The notes: generated by a model from the sequence alone, not told the origin. A stretch of 64,000 nucleotides of DNA from Antedon mediterranea (GCF_964355755.1 NC_092673.1:4159001-4223000), one strand, 5' to 3'; shown: positions 26,641-64,000, numbered from the stretch's first letter. Program-made: numbers and translations.

Positions 26641-26907
26641 GTGGTGGTGGTGTGCAAGAGAATTGCAAATGCCAATGAATTGTTGCCTCCAGTCCAGTCC
26701 TAGCGGCCTGCCCTTTTTTCTAACTGTTTAGTTTATTTTGTTTTAATAGGCCTATAAATATGCTAGGCCTATCTGAAAAACTGTAATGTAATACCGAAAT
26801 TGGATACAGTAATGATACAGGATAAAGCCTAAAGGCTAGGCCGACTGTATATAACTTTTGTAACATGAATTTATATCTCCAAATAGATATCTTTGATGTT
26901 CTGAAGT

Positions 26908-29900
26908 ATGGAAATTGAACATAGACTGAGAGATTCTATTTCGGCAGAACCGCTTCCTCCGACAGAATCTGCTGAGATACTAATTCTCCGTGCCAGGTCA
27001 GAAAATGGAAGTATTGACAGTTTAGCGAGTGATCAAAGGAGCTTACACATCATAGATGATTTCCCAGAAAAGAAACGAGCCGAAGGCGAACTAAATGAAC
27101 AAGTAGAAAGCCTTCTGTTGGACAAAGTTGATAATGGCGACAAACTTGCTACATTTCAACTCGCACAGTTCTATTTTGAACAGGTATTATATTGTATTGT
27201 GTATATATTTTTTCAGTTGGAAATATATTTATGTAACATACTACAGTATGAGTCACAAATGTATCAAAAGTTTTCCTCCCATTTTACAATGTGTTGTTGA
27301 CTTTAGCTTGATATAAAGTTTGCGGTAAACCGCATATATTAGTTCTGAAATCAATTGTTGAATTTCTCGATGTTTCGATCAATATGCTCGTCCTCAGTGT
27401 ACTGAAAACTTGATCAACATTTGATTTCGCCATGCAAACCTTCAATAAATATAAGAGTTTAGCTTGTTATTACAGCTATCCACACTCTCATTATTTCTCT
27501 AATTGCAACTTTCTTTTAAAGGAAAGGAACACCCTGGGCTAAATGTGCCACTGTGCTTATAGATAAATGTAATAAAAACATGATTACAATGGTTCAAGGT
27601 ACAATAGTAAGCAATTTAGTTAAAAAATAGACTTTTAAACGACAAAATATCGGAAATTGAACAGCGCCATTTTGACAGGTTAAGAGCAATTATGTGACGT
27701 CAGATTAGGTGGACGCATTCAAGCAAATCCAAGCGCCCATCGTCTTAGTACAGTATTTCAATATGGAAGTGCGGGATATAACCATAAATAAAATCAATTA
27801 AATAGCCTAACATACCTAATATTTTCGGAATATGGCTTGGAGTTTTTATAATTCAAAAAATTTGGAACCAGAATATACAGAAAGAGAGTTAGTTTTGCGT
27901 CGTGCTGATGAGGAAAAAAGAAGAGAAGAAGAACATTCTCGAGCATAACAAGCCGTCGAAGAATGGTGTACTTTCGGCCAGTGTATCTGTACTGTATGCC
28001 TTACTAGGCCTAGAACTCGTGTTGAACGAAAATAAAGTAGACACTGCATCGTCAACCAACAGCCTCCGTTTGGAAGGTTGGCCAGTTAATTCCCCTACCA
28101 AATCCCGTTTGAAACAGCTAGGCAATAAAAGTAACAATAGATTAACAATAGCTGAAAGATTTACGAATTGGCTTGCAGAAGAAAAGATCGATCGAAGGTT
28201 TGTTTACCAAGCCAGCGCATGCTCATACCGTGTCATCGCCGTCCTGCATGACCGCATGTCGCGTTATTAGCCAATCATATTAGCGGATTCGCTTAGCCAA
28301 TAGAAGCGCTGAATGCAACCGCGAATCTTAAAATTTTCGTCGGCCGTATCTGACGTCACAAACAGGCTGCCATGAGCACAAGATGGCGATTTTCAAATGT
28401 CTTGAAAACAGCTTTAAAATCCTGTTTACTAGAAAACTACAAATCCGATTTAAACATAAATTGTGCTGAATATTAAGTTGGTAGGGTTACTTTTATAATA
28501 GTTAGGTAAGATATTAGGGTGTTCCTTTCCTTTAACATCTTTTCTGCACATGAGTTGACCATTAACAAGCCACAGTTCAGATGATCCATCTCGTCGTAGG
28601 TTTAGTGTTCAAATTATATTGCGGTGCGTTTACATCCTTGCGTTGCGTCCAAGTGGAAACCAAGCTTTATTCTTTAATACAGAAATATGTTGTCCCATTG
28701 ATAACATATTTGGAATTGTTAATGGATCCAGAGCTATAACTCAAAGTAACTCGGAATCACCATCAATATGATGATATTTTAATTGTTTATATTTTTAGGA
28801 TGACTACAAACGTTCGTTGATCTACTATGAGAAAATAAAGGACACAGATCCGCAAGCACAGTTTCAACTGGGTGTTATGTATCATGATGGACTAGGAACA
28901 ACTGCAGATCATGTGAGTATGAAGAAGCTACTGGTGAGGGTGTAAACAGCACATCATCTGACATAATCTTGATATGTTGTCCAATCATAAAAGTTGTTTG
29001 AGTATGGCTGATGTATCATTATTGACTTTTTTGACTTGACAAAATGATAACAAATTGGTTGAAAAATGTAAAAAAAAAACAAGAATTGGGTTAACCACAC
29101 AATTCTTTCTTGAGAATGAAGAGGGCGTGTTTCGACCTCTTTAACCAAGCATCCTCACTGTTACCCTTGCATCAAGTTTAACCTTGGTTCCCACTCGCAA
29201 CGCAACGCAAGGACCTAACCCAACGTAAGCACAAGCAATGAAATATTCGAATAGTGGCTTGTCATTGTTCAACATGCATAAATCCTTGCATTTCTTTTTT
29301 TTTTTATCACAAATTGGTTTGTTCAAGTCATGCATAATTTTTACTGTATATGTAATAATCTCAAGTTTTATTTTGATTAATTGATGCAAACAGAAAAAAG
29401 GGCATGAGTTCATGCTTAAAGTAGCAAACAACTTACATTCAAGCAACCAACACTTAATACATGTTGCGCAGTACAACGTTGGCAGGTCGCATTTTGAGGG
29501 GTGCGGTGTGAAGCAGTCTGACACAGAAGCTGAGAGGTGGTGGTTACTGGCAGCAAATGATGGACATCCTAAGGCTAGCATTAAAGCACAGACAGCTCTT
29601 GGCATGTACTACTGCCGTGAGGAGTCTCTAGATTATAAAAAGGTAACATGCAGTAGCAGTAAAGCTTGGTTCCCACTAGGATACAATGCAAGGACGTAAC
29701 GCAACAAAAGCTTGTTGACCAATGACAAGCGACAGTTTGAATAATCAATCGCTTGTGATTGGTAAACTTACTTACGTTGCGTTACATCCTTGTGTTGCAT
29801 CTCTAGTGGGAACCAAGCATTAAGGGATGAGAAAACAAGAATTACTACAAATAAAATATTTCGATTTGATATCATAGAGCAAGCAGTACAGACAAAAACA

Positions 29901-32032
29901 AAGATTTAATACCAGAGATTTACAAACTTGTTTTTGTTTTTTTCGTAGGCTTTTTTCTGGCATTCCGAAGCAACTGGAAATGGTAGTCTGGAATCTCAAG
30001 GTAAATATCCTTAATTGATTATCCGCACTTGGCTGATAACCCCTTGTTATTGTCAGGATCGTTGAAGTGACGAGTTCAAATCGAGTTTAGTTAGTATTAT
30101 ATTCTGGATTTGAGGAAAGTTTACTTTGATTTTAATTTAAAATAATACACATATTTTGTTTTTTATTTTTGAATTTTGAATTTGTTTTTTATATTGTTTG
30201 GAAGATTATACTATGCTTCAGTTTTCAATTTTGTTCCATTAAATTGTTATTTCTTGTGCACTGAGAACGACAATTATTAAACATTGTTATGTTGCTGGTG
30301 ATGTTTTAAATCTATCACTGAGCCATCATTTGAACTCATTGTTCTGCCACTGTGTGGGTATACGGTTGTAGCATAGAGATATTATCTCTATGGTTGTAGC
30401 AATGTAAATTTTGATATGTCTATATTCATGTAGGAGCCCTAGGTGTGATGTATGAGTTAGGCCTAGGATGTCACAAGAACCATGATTCTGCATTTGAATG
30501 TTTGAAGGAAGCATCTGAACGAGGCAACGTGTATGCCATGGCAAACCTAACAGCGCATTATTATGCTAAGAAGCTATACACAAAGGCAGCCGAGACCGCT
30601 GCTAGGTAAGTACTTCTACAGCACACACTCCCTTAGTGATGCTTAAAGGTGAAATAAGGAGGCAAAGGGTATTTACTCGTATAGGCTACCTCCTCTCATA
30701 GATGTGCAAGTCATATTTGTTTAACACTGCCTGCTATGATTAGCACCGTGGATTGAGTCAATAAACAGAAAAGAGCACCCAACATGGTTAATATTGATAC
30801 ACCATCTTTGTCTCTTACTGTTTCTAAACTGTTGCCACCACCCTTATTACAGAGTTGCTCAACTTAAAGACATTGAAGACATTTCAAGAAAGACGGATTG
30901 CTTACCAGTATTCATAGGTAAAGGCATTGCTATGGGCAGTTTCTACTATGCTAGGTGTCTTCATCTTGGACATGGTGTGCAAAAGGACAAAGACCTAGCA
31001 CAGACTTACTACAGCCAGGTATGTACTGTCATTTTAAATAAATGGAGAATTGTGTCCGGGAGGTATAACATAACAGCTCACTAATTTAATTATAATTCAC
31101 TAAAATAATTAACAAATTAGTTTTACTATGTTTTCCATTATGTTTTGGAATTGCAATCCTTCAGATTTTAACTCGGTGTTCCTTTAAAATTTATGAAGGG
31201 AGCCCTCTATTATTCTACTTTTACAAATCTTTAAATATGTAACCAGCATTTAAAGATGTATTGTCCCCCAAAAACATGAAAAATGAAGATTAATTAAATC
31301 AGACTTTGAATATGTTATTTTGTAGTTTTAATAAAGTTAATCACTTCCGTTAAAAAAAAATGAAAAAAAATAATGTTTTCACCTTTAAATTGACAAAATA
31401 AATGGTTAAATTCAACCAAAAACCCACTAGCTGGCAGCCAATTTGGCCATTTTTTGCTTTAAATTACAGTTTTTTCAGGTAAATACATTTTTTTTTTCAA
31501 ACCAATTTTTGGTCAAAGTGGGTAATTATTATGTTACATTAAAATGGAATATTCAACAACAATTTAGTTAAGAAATATTTTTTTCAGGGGGACAATACAT
31601 CTTTAAGCTGTATTTTAGTTTTATTCCAAAATAATAAATAGCTATCTTCTTTGTTTTCTACTCAATACTATCTCCACCTCTATTTACCAGCCTTATGCCT
31701 CTTATGTTTCTTTTCTTTTATTCCTGTCAACTCAGGCAGCGCTTGCCTGATATATCTATCTATCTTTGTCCAAGTACCTTCACTTGCACTGATGAAGGGC
31801 TAGTATTGCCCGAAAGATCTGCCAACTTTTCTGGCTGTTTTACTTTATCGTTTTGATTTTGCTTTTCGCTTTTTTTTTCATTGAGTATTTTTCCTTTGAA
31901 TTTATTTAAATTTTAATATATAGTGAGAACATTGTATAGTATTGTGTTTTATTTTATCCTATCCAGGCATTCAAATTCGATGGGAATACCACACAGATGC
32001 TACAGAACATGGTGACCCATGGAAAAATATAG
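26908..32032 (+). CDS. LRP2BP: LRP2-binding protein-like Sel1-repeat protein
   Basis: Soluble Sel1/TPR-like solenoid protein; vertebrate LRP2BP binds the cytoplasmic tail of megalin. Coding exons: 26908-27183, 28799-28912, 29394-29642, 29949-30000, 30434-30605, 30853-31018, 31967-32032; phases agree, giving 364 aa (vertebrate protein about 350). Acidic N-terminal leader (1-75), then repeats: QLAQFYFEQDDYKRSLIYYE (about 84-103), QLGVMYHDGLGTT (about 114-126), YNVGRSHFEGCGVKQSDTEA (about 156), ALGMYY/FFWHSEATGNG (about 200-225), ALGVMYELGLGC (about 233), MANLTAHYYAKKLYTKAAET (about 268) and YYARCLHLGHGV (about 315). The first two repeats and the DCLPVFIG stretch match LRP2BP order closely. ATG 26908 is the first in frame. 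Introns hold a 1-kb TIR element, several MITEs and a hammerhead-like motif. I see no clear AATAAA nearby. Confidence 0.94.
27308..27400 (+). repeat. Dispersed repeat family D, copy 2
   Basis: GATATAAAGTTTGCGGTAAA, TTGTTGAATTTCTCGATG and TTCGATCAATATGCT match 19132-19215. Intronic in LRP2BP. Confidence 0.55.
27526..28535. mobile_element. 1-kb DNA transposon with 18-20-base TIRs
   Basis: Left TTAAAGGAAAGGAACACCCT-like end and right AGGGTGTTCCTTTCCTTTAA end are inverted copies. It lies wholly inside LRP2BP intron 1. Two short overlapping frames are present: one from 27831 (MAWSFYNSKN..., lysine/glutamate-rich, ends 27947) and one at 27902-28270. Neither has a transposase motif I recognise. A non-autonomous or decayed element is the likely reading. 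Confidence 0.65.
28551..28673. mobile_element. MITE family B, degenerate copy
   Basis: Contains GTTGACCATTAACAAGCCAC and the right end CCTTGCGTTGCGTCC, AAGTGGAAACCAAGCTTT. Sits immediately beside the 1-kb TIR element. Confidence 0.55.
29171..29245. mobile_element. MITE family B, left-end fragment
   Basis: CCTTGGTTCCCACTCGCAAC and GCAACGCAAGGACCTAAC match the terminal part of family B; the right end is missing. Confidence 0.5.
29661..29824. mobile_element. MITE family B, full copy in LRP2BP intron 3
   Basis: Ends AAAGCTTGGTTCCCACTAGG and TAGTGGGAACCAAGCATTAA. The core has GTTGACCAATGACAAGCGAC and ATCGCTTGTGATTGGTAAAC. It starts 18 bases after the exon donor at 29643. Confidence 0.75.
31247..31607. 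mobile_element. MITE family C, full copy
   Basis: Ends TTAAAGATGTATTGTCCCCC and GGGGGACAATACATCTTTAA are perfect inverted repeats; the core includes AACATGAAAAATGAAGATTA. Other copies are at 23.77-24.05, 36.89-37.14 and 44.76-45.08 kb. Confidence 0.75.
31762..31818 (+). ncRNA. Candidate hammerhead ribozyme (Penelope-like element relic)
   Basis: Core CTGATGA (31789-31795), stem II GGGC/GCCC (31797-31800 with 31808-31811) closing loop TAGTATT, then GAAA (31812-31815). Stem I can form from CAAGT (31771-31775) and ACTTG (31782-31786), extended by TG/CA (31767-31768 with 31787-31788) around a 2-base bulge. A weak 3-bp stem III (ATC 31762-31764 with GAT 31816-31818) places a possible cleavage site after CTT (31764-31766). 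Such motifs are known in Penelope-like retroelements and retrozymes. No reverse transcriptase remains here. The weak part is stem III. Confidence 0.45.
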
Positions 32033-36543: not shown

Positions 36544-38317
36544 ATGGCTCTTTTCAATATGACACACTGCATCATCAGTCTGCTGGGTGCATGCTTGTTA
36601 GTGGGTTCAATGCCTGTGTCCCCGACCACTGATGCTCCAATCCAGCTAAACAACGTCGATGACGCTAAAACGGCTGCCGAGAGATGGGAAAGAAATATTT
36701 ACGATTTCTATACAAGTTATGTAAGTCAATAATTTAATGTTTACTAACTAAATCTTAAATCGTAACTAGCCTATGTGCAAGATTGTATAATACAAAAGAC
36801 AAATGTAAAATTTAAACCATAGAAAAAAGAGTGAACTTTAATTTTAAAGATGGATGTACTCCTACAAAAGATTTTAAAAAAAACATTAAAGATATTTTGT
36901 CCCCTAAAAAATTTATATTTTGTCACCCTAAAAAATATATATTTTTAAAAATGCCAATTTTTAATGTCACATAATAGTTATTCACTTTGACCAAAAACTG
37001 GATCGAACAAAAAATGATTTAATGTAATTTAAAGCAAATAAATATTTAAATTGTCTGACGGACAGTGGTTTTTTGGTTAAAATTAACCGTTTTTTTTGTC
37101 TTTTTATAAGTGAAATCATTATTTTGTTTAATTTAACATTGTGATTTGCCAACAGATAAACAATCATACCGCCCTCTCTGCAACCTCTATCCAAAGTAAT
37201 AACATCTCCAAGCGTGTCGATGACTGTATCCTTCAATACAGGACAACCGCTCAGGTAAGATATACAATGTTTTTACATCTTTGCTCACCTTAGAATTATA
37301 CCGCTTTCACAATAAAGGCAAAACTCGGAAACACGCTCAGGTGTTTTGGTGTGAAAGGGGCCCAAGGAGTTTTGCACACTAAACTGCAAGGAACCCACGT
37401 TCATTGTAATTGTGTCTCATAATCGAATACGTTCTCGTTTGGCCCGGTTGCTCTCACTACATTTTAGAAAATAGCATATATATTGATTGTTTCCAATTCA
37501 TTGAGAATAATTTGCTTGTGTTTGTTTTTTAACAGAGTAATTTGGAAACACGTCTGGTAACATTGGTCAAATACTCGGTTAACATCACAACCCTGATCTA
37601 CATTGATGCTTACACAAGAACCACACTGTCCAATCTTGACAAAACAATGGAAAAGTTTGTAAGTTTTTATCACTAATTCTTCTTACCCTCATCTAATATT
37701 CTCATATAATTCCGTAACTTTCCTAATGAATATATACGATTACGAGTTTGTAAGGCTCCATAAGTAACGTTTCTTAGTAATATAATAACTATGTAACTAA
37801 CATTTTATTATTTATTTTAATTTTCCCAGCTTAAAGAAGACAACGTTAGTGTCTGTAACGTCATTGATGATGAACTTGCACCGCCGCTGTGTTTCGAGTC
37901 CTTTGAGGTACGTATTCTTATAAATAACTAAATATGAATAACTCCAGTGCCGTATAACGGCTATGTTACGGCTATGAGCGCTCACTGGCTAAACCCAGGG
38001 GCCCCTGAGTTTATGGTGCCTCAGACCTTATGGGTCACCTGAGAAGTGCCCAGAGGGCCGGGAAAACAGACATTAAAATATGTCGAAAAGGCTAAAAATG
38101 ACCGAGGCCTCAGGTATCTGCGTTACGCCACTTCTCGGACTCCTATCCATCTATAGCCCACAATGACAATTAAGGCCTATGTTTAATTTTATTGCAGACT
38201 GCCGTAGCTGAAGTAAAACAAAAATCGGAGCCCCTTGCTGTTGCATACTCTCTGCATATGCTACGAAGTGCCGCCGATGCCGTGTACAAACTAACCAGCT
38301 CATCTCAACTTTGTTAA
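36544..38317 (+). CDS. Secreted helical cytokine-like protein 1 (unrecognised family)
   Basis: Coding exons: 36544-36720, 37156-37254, 37536-37658, 37830-37907, 38198-38317 (59, 33, 41, 26 and 39 codons plus stop). All four introns are phase 0 with strong GT-AG sites; 198 aa. Exon 1 starts with acceptor TTTTCAG at 36538, and a leader exon (about 35940-36064) probably precedes it. Residues 1-23 form a signal peptide (ISLLGACLLVGS core). The rest is predicted mainly helical: AERWERNIYDFYTSY (about 45-59), TRLVTLVKYSVNITTLIYID (about 97-116) and AVAYSLHMLRSAADAVYKL (C-terminal). N-glycosylation sequons NHT, NIS, NIT and NVS; four cysteines in the mature part, the last being the final residue. 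No lipid, enzyme or protease motif. Size, helices, sequons and exon phases are those of a helical cytokine; sequence identity with any known one is not apparent. AT-rich 3' UTR. Confidence 0.8.
36886..37140. mobile_element. MITE family C, right-truncated copy
   Basis: Begins ATTAAAGATATTTTGTCCCC and carries the inverted core (TTTTTATAAGTGAAATCATT). It lies in intron 1 of cytokine-like gene 1 and ends about 15 bases before the next exon acceptor. Confidence 0.6.
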
Positions 38318-38385
38318 AACGTATGGCATACTATATTGTAGACATAATATTCTATTTAAGATTATAAATTATTATATTTGTGGTA

Positions 38386-38391
38386 ATTAAA
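38386..38391 (+). terminator. Polyadenylation signal of cytokine-like gene 1
   Basis: ATTAAA variant 69 bases after the TAA stop. One ATTTA pentamer lies between, which means little in such AT-rich DNA. Confidence 0.35.
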
Positions 38392-38399
38392 GCATATTA

Positions 38400-39567
38400 T
38401 ATATGTATATATATATTTTTTAAATTCAGTGATACCATGGATACAACCATAATTTACGTGCGCGTGCAAACGATGTTAGGTGTTATCAGATTTTGAACAC
38501 GCACGTCAAATTTCGGTCTATTCGATGCATCACTGACATACGCTTGCATCAAGCGCACAACTAATTACAAACTATTTCTAGCTGCTCCCAACACAAACAC
38601 GTTTATTTGGACGTATTACGAAACATTTGCTCTGGTGCACCAATATACAAAAGGAACTAACCATTATTAGATGATTTTATCACGTATTGATAATTTGAAT
38701 GAATAACATAACATATAATAGCTACGTAATATGTACTTTTAAAACGATAATTGAAATAGTAGGCCTATAAAATATAAAATTATATAAGTTCCAATATTTA
38801 TACCATTTATTTGTTAATAATATTAACTATATATATCTGTATGTGTATATCCGTTAATGGATAATATACAGCGTTGAAGAAACTAGTACTCTATATTAGA
38901 CATGCGCAGTAGATCATACTGATCACGTATTTGTCGTATTTTCACGGCACGAGGTAATGTTTGCTGCCCAACGTTATGTTATATTGTTGTTGATATATAT
39001 TTGTCAGTTAGCGTTCTTTTTCTCAAAATCATGTTTTCATAGAGGTTCATAGCGGCAGTACTTTTGAGCTTCAAGTATTGTTTGTTATTTAGGACAAAAA
39101 TTCTTTTTCACATCGTCTAGCAAAACTCGGAGTCGAAAAAAAACCTACACACACCACCGGGCGTTTTGCAAGTTGTATGGAAAGTTTCCAGAGTTTTGCT
39201 AAACAATGTAAAAAAGATGTGCGTTGTTTTGTGTATCTGATTATGATCGGATTGATTGCTTTTTTGTTCTGTAATTATTATACTATTAAACAAACAAACA
39301 CTAGTATCATAATTGTTAGCTTAAAATTAGTTAAAATATATAAAGAAAGCTGAATATTATAGAGCTGCTGTGTTAATATTATTTAAATATTTTGCGATGT
39401 TGTCAGTCGCCTTGCATTTGATATTCATTGTTTAACTTGGCCTCGGTTAAATAAAATCATGTAAAATATATGTTGCCTTTTAAAAATCTTTTATTTTGTT
39501 TTGCTACAGATATTTTTTTCACCCAGAGTAGGAGTTTTTTAGGAATTAAATTATTAAAAACATATAA
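38400..39567. other. Intergenic spacer, no gene seen
   Basis: AT-rich sequence with no supportable frame or recognised element, between cytokine-like gene 1 and the palindrome array. Confidence 0.4.
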
Positions 39568-42476
39568 CCATAACATGCGCAGACCACATTATGTGATTCT
39601 GCGTATGTTACATTATTATATAGTAACCAGTTATGTTAAACACAAGTTTTTTTAAATGCAATTATTATGCGATAAAATTGCTCTATATGATCATATATTG
39701 CTTTATCATCATCTTATAGTACCATAGACACTTGTTATCACGACAAATAAAAGTGTCGAAAATTGGCCATTTTTGAAAAAATTCCTGTACTATAGTAAAG
39801 GGATTTTTTCGAAAAATGGCCAAAATATCAAGTTTTTTAAATTAAATTATTATGCGATAAAATTGCTCTATATGATCATATATTGGTTTATTATCATCTT
39901 ATAGTACCATTAGACATCTGTTATGTAACCACTTTTGACATAAATGGTTACTATAGCATAATAAACATGCGCAGAGTCGAATAATGGATTCTGCGCATGT
40001 CGATTGTGCTATAGTAACCATTTATGTCAAATATGGTTATGATAGCACAATTGATGCGCAGAACCCATTATTCGTCTCTGCGCATGTTTATTATGCAATA
40101 GTAACCATTTATGTCAAAAAATAAGGGGGTCGGAAATCGGCCATTTTTCAAAAGTTTCCCTGTACTATAGTACAGGGATTTGTTCAAAAAAATGGCAAAT
40201 TTTCGACCTATTTATTTTTCGATAAAACTGGTTACTATAGCACAATTAACATGCGCAGAACCCATTAGTCGACACTGCGCATGTTTATTATGCTATAGTA
40301 ACCATTTATGTCAAAAGTAAATGGTTATGATAGCACAATTGACATGCGCAGAACCCATTATTCGACTCTGCGCATGTTTATTATGCAATAGTAACCATTT
40401 ATGTCAAAAAATAAAAGGGTCGAAAATCGGCCATTTTTCAAAAATTTTCCTGTACTGTAGTACAGGGATTTTTCCAAAAAAATGGCCAATTTTCGACCTT
40501 TTTATTTTTCGATAAAACTGGTTACTATAGCACAATTAACATGCGCAGAACCCATTAGTCGACTCTGCGCATGTTTATTATGCTATAGTAACCATTTATG
40601 TCAAAAGTAACCACTTTAGACATAAATGGTTACTATAGCATAATAAACATGCGCAGAGTCGAATAATGGGTTCTGCGCATGTTAATTGTGCTATAGTAAC
40701 CATTTATGTCAAATATGGTTATGATAGCACAATTGACATGCGCAGAACCCATTAGTCGACTCTGCGCATGTTTATTATGCTATAGTAACCATTTATGTCA
40801 AAAGTAAATGGTTATGATAGCACAATTGACATGCGCAGAACCCATTATTCGACTCTGCGCATGTTTATTATGCAATAGTAACCATTTATGTCAAAAAATA
40901 AAAGGGTCGAAAATCGGCCATTTTTCAAAAATTTTCCTGTACTATAGTACAGGGATTTTTCCAAAAAAATGGCCAATTTTCGACCTTTTTATTTTTCGAT
41001 AAAACTGGTTACTATAGCACAATTAACATGCGCAGAACCCATTAGTCGACTCTGCGCATGTTTATTATGCTATAGTAACCATTTATGTCAAAAGTAACCA
41101 CTTTAGACATAAATGGTTACTATAGCATAATAAACATGCGCAGAGTCGAATAATAGGTTCTGCGCATGTTAATTGTGCTATAGTAACCATTTATATCAAA
41201 TATGGTTATGATAGCACAATTGACATGCGCAGAACCCATTATTGGACTCTGCGCATGTTTATTATGCAATAGTAACCGTTTATGTCAAAAAATAAGAGGG
41301 TCGGAAATCGGCCATTTTATGAAAATTTTCCTGTACTATAGTACAGGGATTTTTCAAAAAAATGGCCAATTTTCGACCTTTTTATTTTTCGATAAAACTG
41401 GTTACTATAGCACAATTGACATGCGCAGAACCCATTATTCGACTCTGCGCATGTTTATTATGCTATAGTAACCATTTATGTCAAAAGTGGTTCAAATATG
41501 GTTATGATAGCACAATTAACATGCGCAGAACCCATTATTCGACTCTGCGCATGTTTATTATGCTATAGTAACCATTTATGTCAAAAGTGGTTCAAATATG
41601 GTTATGATAGCACAATTAACATGCGCAGAACCCATTATTCGTCTCTGCGGATGTTTATTATGCAATAGTAACCATTTATGTCAAAAGTGGTTCAAATATG
41701 GTTATGATAGCACAATTGACATGCGCAGAACCCATTATTGGACTCTGCGCATGTTTATTATGCAATAGTAACCGTTTATGTCAAAAAATAAGAGGGTCGG
41801 AAATCGGCCATTTTTCGAAAATTTTTCTGTACTATAGTACAGGGATTTGTTAAAAAAAATGGCAAATTTTCGACCTTTTTATTTTTCGATAAAACTGGTT
41901 ACTATAGCTCAATTAACATGCGCAGAACCCATTAGTCGACTCTGCGCATGTTTATTATGGTATAGTAACCATTTATGTCAAAAGTAAATGGTTATGATAG
42001 CACAATTGACATGCGCAGAACCCATTATTCGACTCTGCGCATGTTTATTATGCAATAGTAACCATTTATGTCAAAAAATAAAAGGGTCGAAAATCGGCCA
42101 TTTTTCAAAAATTTTCCTGTACTATAGTACAGGGATTTTTTCAAAAAAATGGCCAATTTTCGACCTTTTTATTTTTCGATAAAACTGGTTACTATAGCAC
42201 AATTAACATGCCAGAACCCATTAGTCGACTCTGCGCATGTTTATTATGCTATAGTAACCATTTATGTCAAAAGTAACCACTTTAGACATAAATGGTTACT
42301 ATAGCATAATAAACATGCGCAGAGTTGAATAATGGGTTCTGCGCATGTCAATTGTGCTATAGTAACCATTTATGTCAAATATGGTTATGATAGCACAATT
42401 GACATGCTCTGAACCCATTATTCGTCTCTGCGCATGTTTATTATGCAATAGTAACCATTTATGTCAAAAAATAAGC
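39568..42476. repeat. Nested palindromic satellite array, about 2.9 kb
   Basis: Built from three hairpin-forming modules: (i) CATGCGCAGAACCCATTAGT facing TCTGCGCATG, present roughly twenty times in both orientations; (ii) GGTTACTATAGCA / ATGCTATAGTAACC with ACCATTTATGTCAAA; (iii) a long hairpin, GGTCGAAAATCGGCCATTTT to AAAATGGCCAATTTTCGACC, around CCTGTACTATAGTACAGGG. A higher-order unit of 487 bases is visible (40321 and 40808), with shortened units from 41202 and 41988. Short repeated frames beginning MVMIAQLTCAEP are artefacts of the repeat. Confidence 0.9.
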
Positions 42477-42546
42477 ATATTGATCTAAACGTCGAGAAAC
42501 TCAACAGTTCTTTTCAGAATATGTGGTGTACTGCAAACTTTATAAC
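42471..42546 (-). repeat. Dispersed repeat family D, copy 3 (inverted)
   Basis: AAGCATATTGATCTAAACGT, CGAGAAACTCAACAGTTC and GCAAACTTTATA are the reverse complement of 19132-19215. It abuts the right edge of the palindrome array. Confidence 0.6.
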
Positions 42547-42904
42547 AACAATATCATACTTGTTTGAAGTAATACTTACAATTAAATAGATTAATTTTGT
42601 TACTACAAATTATTTCTCATAAACGTCAGTAATAATGAGTGACGTATTTCCTTTTTACTTTTAATATAAAAATAATGCATATTTCTCTGCAAGGATGTTT
42701 ACTATAAGGTGGGTGTTAATATTAAAATATGATTCAATGACATAATTTTATACATCGTAAAATATATTCGTGTAATTTAAATTTTATTGAAGATAAATAT
42801 TGTGAAATACCATACTAGATTTCACTCTCAGCATTGTCAACCCTCTACCCACTCCCCAGTCACAATTGAATTGAGGGGTTGTTGGAAGTTCGCAAAATGA
42901 TGAG

Positions 42905-43215
42905 ATACTGGTACTTATTTGAATGGGTTTCGTATTCGACTACAATGCTTATTCAACTTTGATACTTATTCGACTGTAATGCTTATTCAACTCCGGTACT
43001 TATTTAACTACATTTCTTATTCGGCTGCAATACCTATTCAACCCCGGTACTTATTCGACTGCAACGCTTTTTTTGACTTCGGTACTTTTTTGGCTGCATT
43101 TCTAATTCGGCTGAAATGCCTATTCAACCCCGGTACTTATTCGGCTACAATGCTTATTCAACCCCGGTACTTATTTGACTGCATTTCTTATTCGATTGCA
43201 ACGCTCATTCGGCTC
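42905..43215. repeat. Degenerate minisatellite
   Basis: About eleven degenerate units of the pattern TACTTATTCGACTGCAATGC alternating with TTATTCAACCCCGG. The 109-codon frame across it is repeat-driven. Confidence 0.75.
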
Positions 43216-44756
43216 AGTATTTCAATAATTTACCGTAAAGGCAAATAAAAAAATACACCTAAACAATTGTTAACTTAAATTTTTAAATACATACATTGAA
43301 GGGAAAAGGGAGAGACAATAACGAATGGAACAAACAGAAAGTAAAATGTTCTATGTAAGTCACGGGTCGACGTAGCAATCGATATTTTAATTACCGTAAT
43401 CAATTAATACCGAAATTATTTTCTTTTAAAATGTAATTTTTTTACAACTTAAATCCAATACATAGCGCAAATTGAGTAATTGTATTTTTTTCTCATCTTT
43501 TTTTTGTCTTGTGTGAGTTCGTCCCACTTTATTAACACACTCTGTATAGCATAGCATAGCATAGTATAGCATAGCATAGCATAGCATAGCATAGCATAGC
43601 ATAGCATAGCATATTTTTTCCTCTCATTTATATGTTACAACGTTAAAAGTAGTTGTAATAAAAACATCTGCTGTATATACATAAAATGATTGATATTGAT
43701 GTTTTTAAAACCATATTTGCATTCGTTTTTTTACATTTTTAAAAAATGTATTCAAATATACCAAATAATTAACAAAATGGCAAAAAAAGACGATAAATAT
43801 TGATTAAAAACGTACTTTTCTCATCTTAAAAAAATGTTCATAGTGAAATAAATTAAAAAAAATAATAATATCTTTAGAAAAGGTACCGTACAATAATAAT
43901 AATACTAATAATATTAATAATAATAATAGTAATAATAATAATAATAATAATCACATCTGTTTAAATGAAGTATTAAAGTATTGAAAGATGTCAACAACAA
44001 TACACTCTTTATTGAATAAACCGAATCAGCGACGGTAAATGAAATATTTAAAAAAACATTAAAATATAACATACATACAAACGTGCATTTACTGACAATG
44101 TCGTCATGTGTAAATAAATTAATTTAAAACAAAAAATATGCTTTATTACCGAAAAATCCAATTGTAAAACGAATCTAAAAATACATTTAAACTTCGGTGT
44201 CTTTAGGAAAAATATATAGTCATAAAAAATCAAATTGTCAAAATAAATCGATATAGGCCCATTGCTACTAAATAATTATATAGTATAAGTATAATCTATA
44301 GTTATTGCACTATTACTTTCGACTACGGGTTATAATCAGGTAAATAATAAACCACCCACACTTCAATATGAAATAAAGAGAACGTTTAAATTAAACAAAA
44401 AAGAAAGTTGTTCTCAGGACATAAAATGATAATTGCTTAAGTCCAAATTGCAAAAACAAATCAATTAATAAAACCATCATCATAGAACTGTTACATAATA
44501 TAAATGTATTTTGTTTGTTACCATTTCCCATTGTAATTATTTTTAAAGAAATTAGGCCTATATATTATTTCAAAATATTTGGTGTATATAAACACAAACT
44601 GAACAGAGCAAACAACAAACATTGTTTACGAGTGAATGCGACTCATCATCAATCATTTGAATAATTATTTATTAATTAATTTATAACAGGTAGGTAACTG
44701 TTTACTATTTTCTGCATAATAAATAGTATACTGTATAAAATAGTCTTAATTTAAAT
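43216..44756. other. Intergenic spacer with microsatellites
   Basis: 43545-43613 is a near-perfect ATAGC pentanucleotide repeat and 43890-43951 is an AAT repeat. No gene is supportable in the remaining AT-rich sequence. Confidence 0.6.
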
Positions 44757-45076
44757 TTAAAGATATATTGTCCCCCTAAAAAAATATTTTGTTACAAATT
44801 TGTTGTAGAATATGTAATTTGAATTTCACATAATAGTTATTCACTTTGATAAAAAATCGGATCAAAAATGATTTCCCAGAAAAAAATAAAATAAATAGTC
44901 AAATTGGTTGAATTTAACTGTTTATTTTGTCATTTTATAAGTGAAAACATTATTTTTTTCATTTTTTTTTCCTATGGAATGTGATCAACTTTGTTAAAAC
45001 TACAAAAATTGCCTATTCAAGTCTGATTTTATTAATCTTCATTTTTCATGTTTTTCGGAGAAAATACATCTTTAAG
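44757..45076. mobile_element. MITE family C, copy upstream of cytokine-like gene 2
   Basis: Left TTAAAGATATATTGTCCCCC, right GAGAAAATACATCTTTAA, with the family core (TTTATAAGTGAAAACATTAT). It directly abuts a family B copy on its right. Confidence 0.7.
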
Positions 45077-45235
45077 TTTGGTTTCCTTGGACGCGACGCA
45101 AGTACTTTAAAGCACCGCAATTTGACCAATCACAAGCGATGAAGCATCCGAACTGTCGATTATGATAGGTCAACTCACTTGCGTTGCGCGTCTACCCTCG
45201 TTGCGTCGCTTCCAAGTGGGAACCCCGCTTTAAGA
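45073..45235. mobile_element. MITE family B, copy upstream of cytokine-like gene 2
   Basis: Ends TTTGGTTTCCTTGGACGCG and CAAGTGGGAACCCCGCTTTA; core TTGACCAATCACAAGCGATG and TAGGTCAACTCACTTGCG. Confidence 0.7.
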
Positions 45236-45393
45236 AAAGCAATGCAATATCTATTATGGTCACTATGGAGGCAAATCGACTGACGATGTGTCTATGAAAC
45301 ACTGGAAAAAAGAATGGATGTTTTTTTTTTGAATTAGTGGCTTAGATGGCTTAGTAAACATATTATTATTGAGAGGGTTACACCCTACTGAAA

Positions 45394-45494
45394 GAAAACG
45401 AAATAAATATAAAATAAACAAAGTGATGTAATCATAATTTTAAACGATTTTCATTGGCTGTGCGTTCATTGACCCTGCCAGTTTATTATAAATA
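45394..45494 (+). promoter_or_regulatory. Promoter of the second cytokine-like gene (ISRE-like, ATGTAATCAT, CCAAT, TATA)
   Basis: GAAAACGAAA at 45394-45403 fits the GAAANNGAAA IRF/ISRE core. ATGTAATCAT at 45426-45435 is shared with the first gene, ATTGG at 45453-45457 is an inverted CCAAT box, and TATAAATA is at 45487-45494. A start near 45517 would give a leader of about 90 bases before ATG 45607. Confidence 0.45.
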
Positions 45495-45606
45495 CAACAC
45501 ACCAATAGACATACAAATTTACACATTGTCTTCTATTAATCAAAAATTGCAAAATTAAACATTGTTTCGTCTCTACTTCAGATATTTTAGTTTTTCCGAG
45601 AAAAAA

Positions 45607-48001
45607 ATGTTTTTACAGCTGGTATGTGTGCTAGTATTTGCATTGTCTGCATCTTCAAAGCCAATAAGTTCGTGTAGTCTCAGTGAAGGAGACTATTGGT
45701 TGACAAAACTCGATCAACTACACCAGTCATTAAGCAGTGAAGTAAGTAACTAATTAGGCCTGTGTGTGTAAGTTTAGTTACTGACATTATATATAAATAA
45801 TAATACTGTCAAATTATTGATACAATGCTCATATTCGGAACATGATCTCATAATCGCGTCGAGCATAGCTCATCGGCGAAAGTTCCGTATGTTTCAGTTG
45901 TATTAAAAATGTCTGGCGGGATTCGAACATGCGACCTCTCGCTTTACAGGGCGAGTATCATACCGTTAGACCACAGGAGAGCCATATACGGCATTATTAC
46001 AGATCTTCAACCACCATATACATTCTCTTATACAACAAACGACAGGTTTAATTTGTCTCTGTTGTGGTAGATAATGGCGGACACGTGAAATTCCTGCACT
46101 TTTAGGATTTAGACTAAGAATAGATAAGTCAAATAGCGATTTTAATTCGGGTTAAAACAAAATGTCTCGACATGAAACAATACAATTATATATTATATAT
46201 CTTTATATGTGCGATCTCGAATTTATGTCGTCGTGACGGGTAGGCACGCGCGCTCGCCTGCAACAAGCATCGTTGTCGATAAAAAAAACATTGTTTCTTA
46301 AATATTTTTGATTTCATTACAGAGGAACTGTGCTCCTCCTCCATGTGAGTTTGACTTGGATTCTTTTAATCAAACACCACAGGTAAGCATTTTGGCTGAT
46401 AATTTTAATTTACCAACATATAATAAATAAAAAACACTATTCTCCGAATATGTGGTGCATTCTATTTTAAGTTTTAAAAAAATGATCTCTACTATAAAAT
46501 AAAACTGTTAAGCATACGACTGTATATAATATTTTAAAATAATTGGGGTTTTTTCATCAACAGGAATCGGCGTACAGACAAACGGTTAACTTCGTTAAAA
46601 ACACAAACGACGTATTTAGCAGTTGGTTCAATCAATCGCAAACTTCTCGAAGTATAGGCAACTCATTGCAATCACTGGAAAGTCAAGTAAGAATTATGTC
46701 ATTCAGTTTCTTGTTAATATAATAGCATTAAGCCAAAATGTTTTCCTCTATCTCCTCCTAAGCTGCAAGTCCGATACTAGCGCCGTTCGAGTTGGGGCAC
46801 CTTTTAATTCCCTTTGTCCATTAAGCCGTAAAACGGAAAATGTGTACCAAAAATGTGTTATTTAGACCAATTACTTTGAAACTGCCGAATACTGCGGTAA
46901 TTCTCGGCTATTTTCATACGTCACAATTAAGTCACTCATGTCATTAGCAATATCGAGACAGCAGCACATGTGACATGTGTACTATATTACTGTATACTAT
47001 CTGTTTGATTTCCGAACATTAACATCATTATAAGATGGTGCCCGTCCATTGGTACGGCTTAGTTGAAATTTAAATGTTTTTTTTTCTTTCTGAAGCTACG
47101 GAATGCGCCTTCAAATTGTATTCAAACGGGAACGACGGCCACAGATATACAAGATAGTTTTACGGTATGTTTCACACATCTGAAAACTTTTTTTTATAGC
47201 ATTAAAGCTTGGTTCCCACTAGGACGTAACGCAAGGACGTAAACGCAACGCAAGCGTTTTAACCAATGACAAGCGAAGTTATAGACAGTTAGCAATCACA
47301 AGCGAATAAGTCATCGCTTGTGATTGGTCAATTCACTTGCGTTGCGTTACGTCCTTGTGTTGCGTCGCTAGTGGGAACCACGTTTTAAGCTTGGTTCCCA
47401 CTAGAACGTAACGCAAGGACGTAAACGCAACGCATGCGTTTTAACCAATGACAAGCGAAGTTATAGACAGTTGGCAATCACAAGCGAATAAGTCATCGCT
47501 TGTGATTGGTCAATTCACTTGCGTTGCGTTACGTCCTTGTGTTGCGTCGCTAGTGGGAACTAGAACGTAACGCAAGGACGTAAACGCAACGCATGCGTTT
47601 TAACCAATGACAAACGAAGTTATAGACAGTTAGCAATCACAAGAGAATAAGCCATCGCTTGTGATTGGTCAATTCACTTGCGTTGCGTTACGTCCTTGTG
47701 TTGCATCGCTAGTGGGAACCACGCTCTTGAAGTACCATCTCACGTACACAGAGATAAGCATTGTGCAAATTTCTGCAACAATTTGCGAAGTTATCATGGT
47801 CATTTTGTAGGCATTATGCGTGTAAACTGTAAAGTCAAGTTATCATTGATTGAAATTCATGTATTTATCAAAAATAATAATCCTTTTAATAAATGTTGTT
47901 TGTTACAGTGTATACAAAACATGACGGTAACTGAACTAGGCTGCATCATGAGAACACAACTTCGAGTGATAAAACGATTGGTTTTCAATGTTATACCGTA
48001 A
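45607..48001 (+). CDS. Secreted helical cytokine-like protein 2 (unrecognised family)
   Basis: Coding exons: 45607-45741, 46323-46382, 46564-46686, 47096-47164, 47909-48001 (45, 20, 41, 23 and 30 codons plus stop). All introns are phase 0; 159 aa. Signal peptide residues 1-18 (LVCVLVFALSASS). Mature part: a helix in exon 1 (YWLTKLDQLHQSLSSE), a cysteine-rich loop in exon 2 (NCAPPPC), helices in exon 3 (VNFVKNTNDVFSSWF and SIGNSLQSLES) and exon 5 (CIMRTQLRVIKRLVFNVI). Sequons NQT, NQS and NMT; six cysteines after the signal peptide. Exon 3 has exactly the length of exon 3 in the gene at 36.5 kb, and both exon 4s start L-K/R and end SF-E/T, so the two are probably tandem paralogues. The 20-, 23- and 30-codon exons resemble the layout I remember for IL-10-family genes. 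The family assignment is inference. Confidence 0.8.
45914..45988 (-). pseudogene. tRNA-like pseudogene
   Basis: On the minus strand: GTGGTCTAACGG (A-box-like), anticodon stem CTCGC/GCGAG around an 8-base loop CCTGTAAA, and GTTCGAATCCC (B box). The loop has one extra base, two T-stem pairs are mismatched and no good acceptor stem forms, so it is a degenerate tRNA or SINE head in intron 1 of cytokine-like gene 2. Confidence 0.5.
47203..47728. mobile_element. Three tandem copies of MITE family B
   Basis: Units at about 47203-47388, 47389-47560 and 47561-47728. Each has AACGTAACGCAAGGACGTAA, ACCAATGACAAGCGAAGTTA, CATCGCTTGTGATTGGTCAA and GCTAGTGGGAAC. The units are nearly identical, so the amplification is recent. 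Located in the last intron of cytokine-like gene 2, starting 38 bases after its donor. Confidence 0.85.
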
Positions 48002-50820: not shown

Positions 50821-53800
50821 TCAAAAGTCAAGGTTCACCGAGGTACTTTCACGTAAACCATCATATTGCTGTCCCTCTTCCGTCATGTAGTATGCCATTG
50901 TCGGCACTCTTTTAAGCGTTACACGTCCTCCGCCCATACCGCGTAATCGTCGGATAAAAAGGAGTATCGCAGTGAACACGATGATAAAGCAAAGTATAAG
51001 TAGATATTCGTATGAAATTACTGAAACAGGGATCCAAGGCGGTTGGTAATTTTTTTGGAATGAACCTTGTTGGATTTCTCTGAAATTTAAAAAAAAAAAA
51101 AATCCTGAAAATATTTATTTATTAACTCCCTGGTAATGGCAAAGTGCATTAACAGTACTATAGCCCTATCCTACAATAGCCTACACAATGCAATCTGGGT
51201 TTTCTAGACATGCACAGATGATTGTAAAGTTCCTGTTTTTCAGTCTCTAAATATGTTCTTTGTAAAAAATCTTATGTGTTAGACATACATGTTGACTATA
51301 TTTAAAGGTTTAACAAACAGGTGATAATAATATTAATAATAACTTTAAAATGAAAAACTTTTTTTTATAAAGCATGAATTTCAATTATCTCATTAAGGCA
51401 TACAGTATATATAATTAATAACAATATGGTTTCTTGAAGGCAGATTGCACATCAAGAAACCAAACCAAGGATCCCTAACAAGTGCAACTAAAACGACACA
51501 AGATAGGAGGATCTGGCAAGAGGTCGTGAAACAGAAGCCATCACAAGTCTCCCAGACGGTGTGGACAGCTTAGGTCAAGGTCAGGGGCCAAGTCTCCGAG
51601 TGTTATATCTATCTACCTGATGTGATAGTGCCAGCAACATACCTTTCCAAATCATCCGGATAAACCCTTGCTAAACTTCCACCAGTACTCCTTCCATTCC
51701 CCCCCCCCCCCCATTGGTTTATTTTTTAAATGTTAATGTATCTCATTGGCTATTGCTAAATTTCATTCATGCATTGTTTAAAAAACGTTGTAATAGTAGT
51801 TTGATGTCCATGTACATTAGATATGTATTCGTCATTCGCTACAGTACATAATAAAGAGCTTTTTGCGACGAAATAGGACATACGTAATTTTTCCAAGTTT
51901 CAGCGCTGTAAAACTGATTTTGATTTTTACACGATGACCATAAAACCAAAAATGGTTAAATTGTGCATGTCTGTGATAACAGAATCCGAGGTAATCACCT
52001 GGAACAAGACTCAAGCAAATACAAGCATGGTACGGTGACAACATCTTCTAAACTAAGCATACGCGAATAGTGATGTTGCAAAATTGAAATCTTATCGTAT
52101 ACTGTATACAACAGGGATTGCTTATGACCGCAAAGATAAACATCTTTTACATGTTGATAATGATTCTTTCTCATTTCTTGAATCATATATCAAGTAATTT
52201 AATATTTTTAGTGACATAGAACCTTCATAAAATCTAGTGTGAAATAGATAATAAATTTATAAATAAAATAATTTACATAATGTATTTACGCTGGTAAAAC
52301 GAAGCACTACTAACCTGAGAGGTAAAAACCTTGTTCTATATAAAATTGCACCTAACGTCCACTGCACTTCTTTATCGTGAATAAGACTTGCTGTACGCAA
52401 ATATTTATATTCTTTAGGAAACTTAAAACCACTATGCAATACTGCCATCATCCATGCCGATTTAAAACATTGATCACTAAAAAATACAATTAAAATATAT
52501 ACATAAATTCTGAATCCCAAGTAAGAAAAATAGTGTTTTAAAAAGATTCAATAAATAATGTTTATTAATACACTGAATACAGTACGTTAAATTGTTGAAG
52601 TGGGGAAAATGTTGGAAATGAATTAAAAATGAACGTGTTATTTACAATTATTCATCATACTATCACACTACATGAGGGAAATATACATTGTCTATTCTAC
52701 AATTCATTCATAACTATCTATAATATCATCAATTAAACTAAACATAATTTAATTGCAGATACGGATGTGTTTTATGATGCCATGAAACTAGTTTCAAAAG
52801 CAGTCATTAAAATCAAAATAATTTGTAATATTAGACACATATAGAGTAAGTCTTGTTTGTTGTTGAATAACTTATTAATAGCATTAACAAGTAAATATAC
52901 AATAGACAAACGATAGCAGTATTATTATTATACGACTGCGAATTGATACGAAACAAATTTTATTGTTCAGGAGGGTTTTTAGAGGGATGTTTATTTGAGG
53001 GAGGCGTTTATTTTTTTGGGTGTAATATGGTAACACGTATATATATATATATGAAAAATGCAACACAATTAATATATAAATGTTATCAAAATTTTATCAA
53101 AATGCTTTGTAAATTGTAGATTAAATTCTACTACAAATAGAAATGTATTGTAATATAATATTGTGTATATTATGCGTGTGGCGGGGCATTTATTCGAGGA
53201 AATAAATAAACGCCCTGGGTGTTTATTCCAGGGGGCGCGTTTATTCCAAATTATGTTCTATGGGAGGCGTTTATACAAGGGAGGCGTTTATACAAGGGAG
53301 GCGTTTATTCAAAGCGGGGTGTTTATTTAAATAAATATGGTATCTATCTATAATTACAGTTCCAATCAATTTTAAAAACCTACCGTAACCTAAATTCATC
53401 TGCTTTAGTATAAAGGCCTTTTCTTCTATGCTCTTCTATTAAAGACCATTTTGTTGCACAATATTCCTACAAGAGAAAACATAACATTACTGTATTACGA
53501 TACATAAAAACACAGAATTAAAACGAACGTCACGATAAAGACTACACATAGGCGGCTCAAGAAATATCCTGGCCCTGATAAATATAAATCAATAAAAAAA
53601 ATTTAGAACAACCAGAAAAATGTTTCAACGTTTGCACATGCTAAAAATTTTGAAACACTGATGACGCCAACGCAACACAAATAGATGTGCAAGCAGGTGC
53701 AGATTTGGTTTCATAAGTCTGTAAAATGAACAAAAACAAACATTAAACAAACTTACAGATGCTGCTTTACGATAAACGTTGTAAGAATAAGGTCCTCCAA

Positions 53801-56800
53801 TTCGCAAAACATCCTCCATACAATACCAGTACTCGGAAAAGCCATAGAACTCACTATTTGCAAAGTTAATATTTGGCTGGAATACTCCATTTACAGAGCA
53901 GGGTTGTTTTTGACAAGGGACAGTCTTATTCAGAAGTGGTTGAATAACTTGGTGACATGTACTGAAGTCACCCGTTCCTTCTAGGTGGTATTTTGTGTTT
54001 TTAAAATTAATACTGGTCTGCATTTCAACAGGCAGGCATGGGTCGAGTATTGGTGACACAGGACTTAGGCCTAGAGAGGTCAAAGAACTGCAAATAAAAA
54101 AAAACAAATTTATAAATCTATTGTACTTGATTAATTTTAACATGGCTGAACATTTATTTGCAACGACCGACGACCAAACCACGTAATGTCAGATCGTTGT
54201 TCGCATGCAGAAAAATATTTGGATGCGTGTCCTCGCTCCTCAACTTGGCACAGTTTTGATGGGTTCTAGGTCCAGGGCGCGATATTTTTTTACGCTCAAC
54301 GAAACTGCCAGCTAGCCAGAATACCGTTTTCTGATTGGATGTTGATGTCACGTGAGATGTTTAAATCACTCACTCATGCAGTTCGCCTCAGTAGGTAATT
54401 CCTCCTCGCACTCTCCGACCGGTTGCGACTCGCACTGCTCTTTAGGCTAGCAATTACGTGTTGTAGGAATGGTACATTTCAACTACTAGCTCCTTGCACA
54501 ACAGACAGAGGCTTACAATTTCCCGCATTTTTATCGTGTCGCCATCGTTGAAATGTTTTTTCGTAATATTTATTGCTCTTTTCTATGTACAATGTTTGAG
54601 ATAAAATAATTATAAATAAGAGCAATTATCGTTGTGGATAATACCGAAACGTGGATAATAAAGAAATCACGCATTGGCGATAAAACGTTGGTCTGGATGG
54701 TGTAAATTTGTTTTTGTTTATGGTCCAACATCATTTGTTGAAAATTTTAAAAAAATGATAATAAATAATCACAAACACTATTTCCCTGTGACTTATAAAT
54801 ATATATTTAGATGAGTTGTTGCTTGTAATTCTGCCACAAAGGAATTGAGCCTTTTTTGTCAGTATATAAAAGGATGACAAAAGTGTATTTTGACCGTGCC
54901 AGCCCGATGTTCCAAGAAACTCTTCACAAGTTTCCGCTTTTTGGGTTTAGCCGCTCTTATTTATAATTATTTTATCTCAAACATTGTAGGCCTACATAGA
55001 AAAGAGCAATAAATGTTACGAAAAAATTTCAACGATGGCGACACGATAAAAATGCGGGAAATTGTAAGCCTCTGGTTGTCTCCTCTGGCTGTCTGTTGTG
55101 CAAAGAGCTAGTAGTTGTTTCAGGCAGCGTGCTCTCAGGCAGCGAGCCATTGAAATGTACGATTCCTACAACACGTAAATTGCTAGCCTAGAGCAGTGCG
55201 AGTCGCAACCGGTCGAAGATTGCGAGAGGGGGAATTACCTACTCTGAGGCGAACTGCATGCGTGAGTGATTTGAACATCTCACGTGACATCAACATCCAA
55301 TCAGAAAACAGTATTCTGGCTAGCTGGCAGTTTCGTTGAGCGTAAAAAAATATCGCGTCCAGGGCGACGACTGACGACACATTGATTGACTAGGTTGGTT
55401 GTCGGTCGTCACAAATTGATAGCTCTCAAATACCATGTGAAAACGTCAGATCACCAAATTGCTAGACTATATTGTGTTGGTGCTTCCAACATACATACCT
55501 TCTATTACTAGACAGCATGGATTTAATTAGCATATTTTCATAACGTGATCTTGCAGCATTACTTCCAAAGCCAAGGAAAGTAGTGACGTACACTCTGTAG
55601 TTATGCTCAGCTTCATGAGTATCACAACCTAAACTAAACTCTGCTAGTAGAGATTTGGCATCCTCCTCCTACAATGCAAATATAACAACATAGATGTAAT
55701 GTATGTATGTATGTATTTTAAATTATTATTTTTTTTCCACTAATGCAGTTTTGCATAGCATACACAAATGTGCTTTGTTAAGGCACGTGCTGTTTGAATA
55801 AATTATATTTAAAACTAGATTTAATTCGTCACTATGACGAATTATAGGTTATATGCATTGATTTAAATAAAGATAATTGATTTTTAAAAGATATATTGAT
55901 TGATTGATTTTCTCAGAATCTTTAATTATTTATAATATATGATAGGACCTTGCTAACGCGAACACCATAGCCGGTATCACAATCCGATCAAAGATCCATA
56001 TGCGTATAATGTCATAAACCACATTTGTTGTTACATAATAATAAAGACATAAGTTACTTTTTATCTAGATTTCATTATAAATCATGTGTATAATCTATAC
56101 ACAAAGAAATAAATTTGAACAAACAATACGGATAATAAAAAAAAAATCTTATTTCGTTTCCCAAGGTGAGACTCGATCTCGGTACCTTGAATGCCATAGA
56201 CACGAGCACAGACCATCGAGCCATACACAACTGACTAAAAGTTGTAGAAAAATTCCTCCGTGTATTTACTATGCAGTAACCACTTTGGTGCAAATAGATT
56301 ATTACATACCGCAATGAATTATAATTTTTTACTATGATGACATCTTTAAAAATGTAAAAAAATGATGCACTGTCAAACTATATACTTTTAACTTTAATAT
56401 ATGAACTTCTTAAGAAAGAAAGTTAATGTTAAGTTTGTTATTTCGGCCTAAGAAAATGTCATAATTTGTCTGATTGTCAAAATTATTTTTTTTAAATTTA
56501 ATATGCAATTAATGAAGACTTAATCAACTTTTGTTCTCTTAATTTGATAATAAATCATACATATGATACATACACTTCAAGAAAATGAAATAAAAAATAG
56601 GTGTTCCCCAGCATTCTGACGATATCTATTAATTAAAAAAATTAGCATATTTTCACCATTTTGTTAACTTATACGTGCGTAGCCTGTCACTTTTGACGTG
56701 CTCGTATAACGCAATTTCGAGTTGAAAAGTGAATCACATATGATGATATTATTAAAGAAAGACTGTAAAACAGAAATCAGGCAAAAAGAGTGCGCATTAA

Positions 56801-63734: not shown

Positions 63735-63817
63735 AAAAAATATTTAATATTAGAATCATGCATTAATTTTTGTTAAATATTGTATTTAAATCGATAATAT
63801 ATTTATGGAATTCAAAT

Positions 63818-63823
63818 AATAAA
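63818..63823 (+). terminator. Polyadenylation signal of BNIP1
   Basis: AATAAA 84 bases after the TGA stop. Confidence 0.65.
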
Positions 63824-64000
63824 GATTCCAAGTACATTCTCCCAGTTTTCCAGTAATTTTTTAGGATATCAGACATGAAATATACATGTACTACAGTAAA
63901 AAACTATATTCACATAGCCTACAATAAATACATTGTAGTGATTAATTTAGGAACAGTTAACTGGCAGAACAATTGAGCTATTCTAAGTTAATAAGTTGTG
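63824..64000. other. Downstream flank, nothing identified
   Basis: Short AT-rich sequence after the BNIP1 polyadenylation signal; no feature is supportable. Confidence 0.4.

Follow-up and report, generated by a model that had tools for sequence, protein, structure and literature searches.

A stretch of 64,000 nucleotides from the crinoid Antedon mediterranea (GCF_964355755.1 NC_092673.1:4159001-4223000; hereafter the window) carries, between positions 36544 and 48001, two adjacent genes, genes 1 and 2, that probably encode secreted, glycosylated, disulphide-bonded helical cytokines of class II (i.e., of the IL-10/interferon type). We favor this reading because the two genes have the right gene structure and size, because their products are predicted to be secreted and helical, and because they lie in a genome that bears class II cytokine receptors. 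That they work like class II cytokines is what we infer from these features, and they are candidate members of the class.

The genome was taken to be that of a crinoid because it encodes crinotocin (CFWRTCPVG-NH2), a peptide of the vasopressin/oxytocin type known from the feather star A. mediterranea (PMC9793003). A degenerate crinotocin pattern had a single match in the genome, at C4:25447225 on the same chromosome as the window, where the precursor exon context (MQECCRILLVLFALVSLSTA-CFWRTCPVG-GKR) runs from a signal peptide through the peptide itself, identical in sequence, to a site for amidation and cleavage. The source of the genes, given as an invertebrate in an earlier note on this DNA, is thus a crinoid echinoderm. 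A search for the GH6 family, which would have pointed to a tunicate, had no match, and its control was silent too. Mitochondrial COX1, sought for reading the genetic code, had no match in the assembly, and the small contig C17 was not mitochondrial.

Two genes with five coding exons each

Two secreted proteins of 198 and 159 amino acids, each encoded by five exons separated by four phase-0 introns, had been read from the sequence in the earlier note, and the same models were obtained when the exons were re-derived from the DNA. Gene 1 has 59/33/41/26/39 codons (198 amino acids) and gene 2 has the previously reported series of 45/20/41/23/30 codons (159 amino acids); all 8 of the 8 introns, four per gene, are GT-AG and in phase 0. 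The exons are as follows, with splice sites ranked among all candidates of their region and with helices, in residue numbers, predicted from low-confidence models:

36544-36720, + strand: gene 1 exon 1, signal peptide and predicted helix A (open reading frame; donor rank 3; helix 38-63)
37156-37254, + strand: gene 1 exon 2, A-B loop and predicted helix B (donor rank 1, acceptor rank 15; helix 73-90)
37536-37658, + strand: gene 1 exon 3, predicted helices C and D (acceptor rank 1, donor rank 10; helices 95-118 and 126-135)
37830-37907, + strand: gene 1 exon 4, D-E loop with cysteines and short predicted helix E (donor rank 2, acceptor rank 4; helix 158-161)
38198-38317, + strand: gene 1 exon 5, predicted helix F and stop (phase-blind gene finder; helix 172-193)
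45607-45741, + strand: gene 2 exon 1, signal peptide and predicted helix A (open reading frame and splice-site ranks; helix 25-44)
46323-46382, + strand: gene 2 exon 2, A-B loop with two cysteines, 20 codons as in IL10 (donor rank 1; no predicted helix)
46564-46686, + strand: gene 2 exon 3, predicted helices C and D (acceptor rank 3; helices 64-86 and 91-108)
47096-47164, + strand: gene 2 exon 4, D-E loop cysteine and predicted helix E (acceptor rank 4; helix 121-132)
47909-48001, + strand: gene 2 exon 5, predicted helix F and stop, the least certain exon (acceptor rank 14, codon score -0.10; helix 136-155)

In the rank test, the splice sites used were mostly near the top of all candidates. 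Codon scoring trained on 1,341 codons of neighboring genes and receptors placed the proposed frame above the other forward frames in 9 of the 10 exons. A dynamic-programming gene finder with no phase preference returned all five exons of gene 1 with phases 0,0,0,0 and a later ATG start (score 72), as well as exons 1-4 of gene 2, also in phase 0 (score 68), whereas scores in 22 control windows of 2.5 kb did not exceed 41. The models of both genes are confirmed at the DNA level.

It is very improbable that these models are wholly or partly wrong and that the architecture is an artefact of exon choice. Such an error is suggested by exon 5 of gene 2, the least certain exon because of its weak acceptor, its codon score and a competing last exon at 47405-47491, and by the doubtful exons that the gene finder appended to both genes in wider windows; it is opposed by the phase-blind recovery of the whole of gene 1 and of four exons of gene 2, well above the control windows, and by the best-scoring frames of nearly all exons. 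Tandem copies of an element (GGTTCCCACTAGGACGTAACGCAAGGACG...) occupy 47205-47719 within intron 4 of gene 2, and a related copy lies upstream of the gene at approximately 45080-45240. The competing last exon originates from the GGTTCCCACTAGGACGTAACGCAAGGACG element.

Protein features, intron positions and competing explanations

The N-termini of both proteins are hydrophobic and were judged by inspection to be signal peptides. The mature proteins of genes 1 and 2 contain 4 and 6 cysteines and 4 and 3 N-glycosylation sequons, respectively, with one further sequon inside the signal peptide of gene 1, which agrees with the signal peptides, 3-4 sequons and even number of mature cysteines described before. 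At 159 and 198 amino acids, both presumably secreted products are of the size of class II ligands (approximately 150-200 amino acids).

All six IL10-family genes, IFNL1, IL3 and IL21 consist of five exons, and their introns split no codon and fall at corresponding places relative to the helices (PMC2654155); IFNL1 has the same gene structure as genes 1 and 2. IFN-upsilon was discovered, and then validated, in a screen of intergenic DNA that asked for a signal peptide, helices and five coding exons with introns in phase 0; the two crinoid genes show all of these features (the helices as predictions, and exon 5 of gene 2 being less certain), as do the intron-containing interferons (type IV, fish type I and IFN-lambda) (PMC8863823). 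They differ from IFN-upsilon and these interferons in that no sequence similarity was seen and in that the crinoid pair is known from its gene sequence alone.

The likeness to the IL-10 family extends to the distribution of the predicted helices: in both crinoid genes, exon 1 encodes helix A after the signal peptide, exon 3 encodes a pair of helices, and exons 4 and 5 encode a single helix apiece. Both also have a cysteine early in exon 4 in addition to the five coding exons and phase-0 introns. Exons 2, 4 and 5 of gene 2 are nearly equal in length to those of human IL10, which we take to have 55/20/51/22/30 codons, all in phase 0, and whose helix limits used below are likewise assumed. The differences are that gene 2 has more cysteines, that gene 1 has a longer exon 2, and that the genes are from a crinoid rather than a vertebrate, have no detectable sequence similarity to the family, and have a bundle fold that is putative.

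Intron positions were further measured as offsets from the end of helix A, the start of C, the end of D and the end of E, with randomly placed introns as the null. The offsets were -4,-3,0,-1 for IL10, -4,-3,-2,-2 for gene 1 and +1,+1,-2,-3 for gene 2; in these post hoc comparisons, random introns equalled the agreement of gene 1 with p ~2e-5 and that of gene 2 with p ~1.3e-3. The earlier description of the genes as closest to IL-10/IFN-lambda is supported by the architecture and the IL-10 helix/intron register, and not by sequence or fold.

Several results weigh against assigning genes 1 and 2 to the class II cytokines. Pfam and PDB sequence searches with both proteins gave no useful match and no cytokine. 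Exon-wise alignment to human IL-10, whose sequence was checked against PDB entry 1inr, was no better than that of shuffled sequences (p=0.08 for gene 2 and p=0.64 for gene 1), and the two proteins were no more alike than shuffled controls (p=0.24). The gene finder exchanged the last exon of gene 2 for one at 47405-47491, within a repeated element, or added two micro-exons. AlphaFold, run from single sequences, gave very low confidence (predicted local distance difference test, pLDDT, of 39 for each product), so that the six-helix class II bundle is a putative fold, and helices B and C of gene 1 lack clear amphipathicity. Because the helix calls are weak, the IL10 helix limits and exon lengths are assumed and the comparison was chosen post hoc, the helix-intron agreement may be counted as support and not as proof. 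Finally, the architecture was assessed in these two genes, and it may not be rare among the secreted genes of the genome.

Sequence likeness is not obligatory among class II cytokines, as IFN-upsilon and IL-10 of zebrafish share 4.8% (PMC8863823). The structure prediction and Foldseek comparison proposed in the earlier note yielded helices, while the bundle fold was not demonstrated. For the gene 2 model, Foldseek listed leptin, IL-10, IL-6, IFN-lambda, growth hormone, IL-2 and IFN-beta at E >= 1.5, none of them significant, and for gene 1 it gave a mixed list, also with no significant match. VIA-align matched the gene 2 model with rods and long helices and that of gene 1 with a mixture of helical bundles (top Z 9.4), in neither case with a cytokine on top, which is uninformative for models of this quality. 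Because the models are at pLDDT 39, the fold searches count neither for nor against the class II reading.

The same mutual dissimilarity bears on the description of genes 1 and 2 as a pair, which now stands on shared architecture and adjacency alone; homology between the two is unsupported. A genome search for paralogues of either gene returned only the genes themselves plus chance matches at E 0.5-1.2; both are single-copy. The IL10 model of Pfam, searched against the whole genome, had one coiled-coil-like match, which was dismissed as chance.

The lack of sequence or fold relatives and of mutual similarity would also be expected if the genes encoded unrelated secreted helical proteins of the crinoid, such as an effector, an antimicrobial, a pheromone or a matrix protein, whose phase-0 likeness to cytokines arose by chance. 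Phase 0 is the commonest intron phase, and the choice of the window for its resemblance to cytokine genes favors this explanation as well. We nevertheless regard it as somewhat unlikely, given that two adjacent genes share exon count, phases and helix-intron register, and that a genome with class II receptors (see below) should therefore have ligands.

Another explanation is that genes 1 and 2 are class I short-chain helical cytokines (IL-2/IL-21/IL-3-like) that act via a gp130-like class I receptor and not via the class II receptors. The five-exon structure without split codons is shared by IL3 and IL21 (PMC2654155), and a class I IL6R-like receptor was reported in a sea urchin (PMC13203501). 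Leptin, IL-6, growth hormone and IL-2 in the non-significant Foldseek list of gene 2 point in the same direction. The assignment of predicted helices to exons, a pair to exon 3 and a single one to each of the last two exons, matches that of IL-10, however, and long-chain class I cytokine genes have a tiny first exon that ends in phase 1, which makes a class I identity quite unlikely.

Class II receptors and a proposed mode of action

The receptors that bear on the class II reading lie outside the window, in an assembly of 11 chromosome-size contigs and small ones. A Tissue_fac profile search of the genome had matches at C7:20.58 Mb and C9:0.87 Mb, the exons of which read as class II receptor domains:

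C7:20576501-20586500: receptor A, class II cytokine receptor gene (Pfam Tissue_fac, 2.9e-13)
C9:864001-874000: receptor B, class II cytokine receptor gene (Pfam Tissue_fac, 7.9e-12)

The best PDB match of both was IL-20RA (5.8e-7 for receptor A and 1.8e-7 for receptor B), followed by interferon and IL-22 receptors, and in D1 they match the vertebrate class II receptors IL-20RA, IFNAR1, IFNLR1, IL-22RA1 and IFNGR1. Spliced exons of receptor A measure 67/133/179/197/139/164 nucleotides, followed by a cytoplasmic exon, and its intron phases of 1-2-1-0-1-0 form the complete signature of the vertebrate receptors, as reported for the receptor genes of IFN-upsilon in a study that set them beside further interferon receptors (PMC8863823). 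Receptor B has exons of 67/133/179/194 nucleotides with 1-2-1-0 as the phases of its first four introns. Receptor A also matched fn3 (2.6e-4) and, below the cut-off, Interfer-bind (0.036), and has a transmembrane segment by eye; in receptor B, the transmembrane exon ends in HLPHW, which resembles the JAK-binding Box1, also by eye. Receptors A and B share 34% identity across D1 and a portion of D2. They differ from their vertebrate counterparts in their echinoderm host and in D2: receptor A has a weak D2, and that of receptor B is incomplete, its second exon not having been found.

A JAK was recognized by its FERM domain on C8 (PDB best match JAK2, 1.2e-5) and a STAT was located on C2, so that the check suggested in the earlier note was positive for class II receptors and for JAK/STAT. 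With two class II receptor genes, JAK and STAT in this genome, there is good support for an echinoderm having the receptor side of a class II cytokine system, and the two receptor genes are arguably a firmer finding than the ligands themselves.

Other matches were dropped. The Interfer-bind match in the genome was low-complexity sequence with stops, the remaining Tissue_fac matches fell either in unremarkable fn3 exons or in clustered genes for large GTPase/fn3 proteins, and extra matches with receptor A as the query were titin-like or generic fn3 repeats. At C3:26544674-26710456, there is a cluster of very similar genes with open frames of 1,000-1,300 codons, which read as fn3 domains with a GTPase-like domain after them; this is possibly an expanded defense family.

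Genes 1 and 2 are the best ligand candidates seen for the crinoid class II receptors, and it is likely, if unproven, that they encode the ligands. If they do, they most likely act as other class II cytokines do. The product of either gene would bridge a high-affinity and a low-affinity class II chain, two chains being encoded in the genome (on C7 and C9), and the bridged chains would bring two receptor-bound JAK molecules together and thereby activate JAK. Phosphorylation of the receptor tail would then recruit STAT, by which the signal would reach the nucleus. While the parts (gene models, receptors, JAK and STAT) were observed, every interaction among them is proposed. The ligands may fold as bundles, carry N-glycans and disulphides, choose among these receptors and have an immune or antiviral role.

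Surroundings of the genes and significance

The other features annotated in the window are as follows:

4103-21618, + strand: multi-SH3 protein, SH3PXD2-like (SH3 by Pfam)
26905-31084, + strand: Sel1-repeat protein, LRP2BP-like (Sel1 by Pfam)
45487-45492, + strand: TATA-box-like TATAAA upstream of gene 2 (motif scan alone; putative function)
53121-60963, - strand: GDA1/CD39 nucleoside phosphatase, ENTPD4/7-like (GDA1/CD39 by Pfam)
63215-63856, + strand: perhaps a SEC20/BNIP1-like protein

The SH3PXD2-, LRP2BP- and ENTPD-like neighbors differ from what we take to be the neighbors of vertebrate IL10 or IFNG. Between genes 1 and 2, at 39945-42469, there is an array of approximately 2.5 kb of palindromic units (TGGTTACTATAGCA...ATGCGCAGA...) with periods of approximately 90-490 bases, which has the appearance of a short inverted-repeat element in nested copies. 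The region upstream of gene 2 (45006-45606) contains a sequence like an interferon-stimulated response element (GAAAACGAAA at 45394) and STAT-like sites (TTCNNNGAA at 45054 and 45594); these are unweighted motifs that may be due to chance.

An interferon-like ligand and receptor were previously claimed in an invertebrate, i.e., CgIFNLP and CgIFNR-3 of oyster (PMC8218723). In this the oyster resembles the crinoid; it differs in being a mollusc, and its genes are set beside those of the crinoid by description only. No paper on such genes in echinoderms was found in the literature searched, from which most subscription journals are absent.

Class II receptors in an echinoderm would push the ancestor of the system back before the echinoderm-chordate split. 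We see about an even chance that the crinoid has a complete class II system of two ligands, two receptors, JAK and STAT, in which case IL-10/interferon-type signaling would predate that split and would have been present in the echinoderm-chordate ancestor instead of arising in early jawed vertebrates. The two named candidate ligands make a class II system in an echinoderm testable by binding, and, if the proposal is true, immune signaling of the IL-10/interferon type would be older than the vertebrates.

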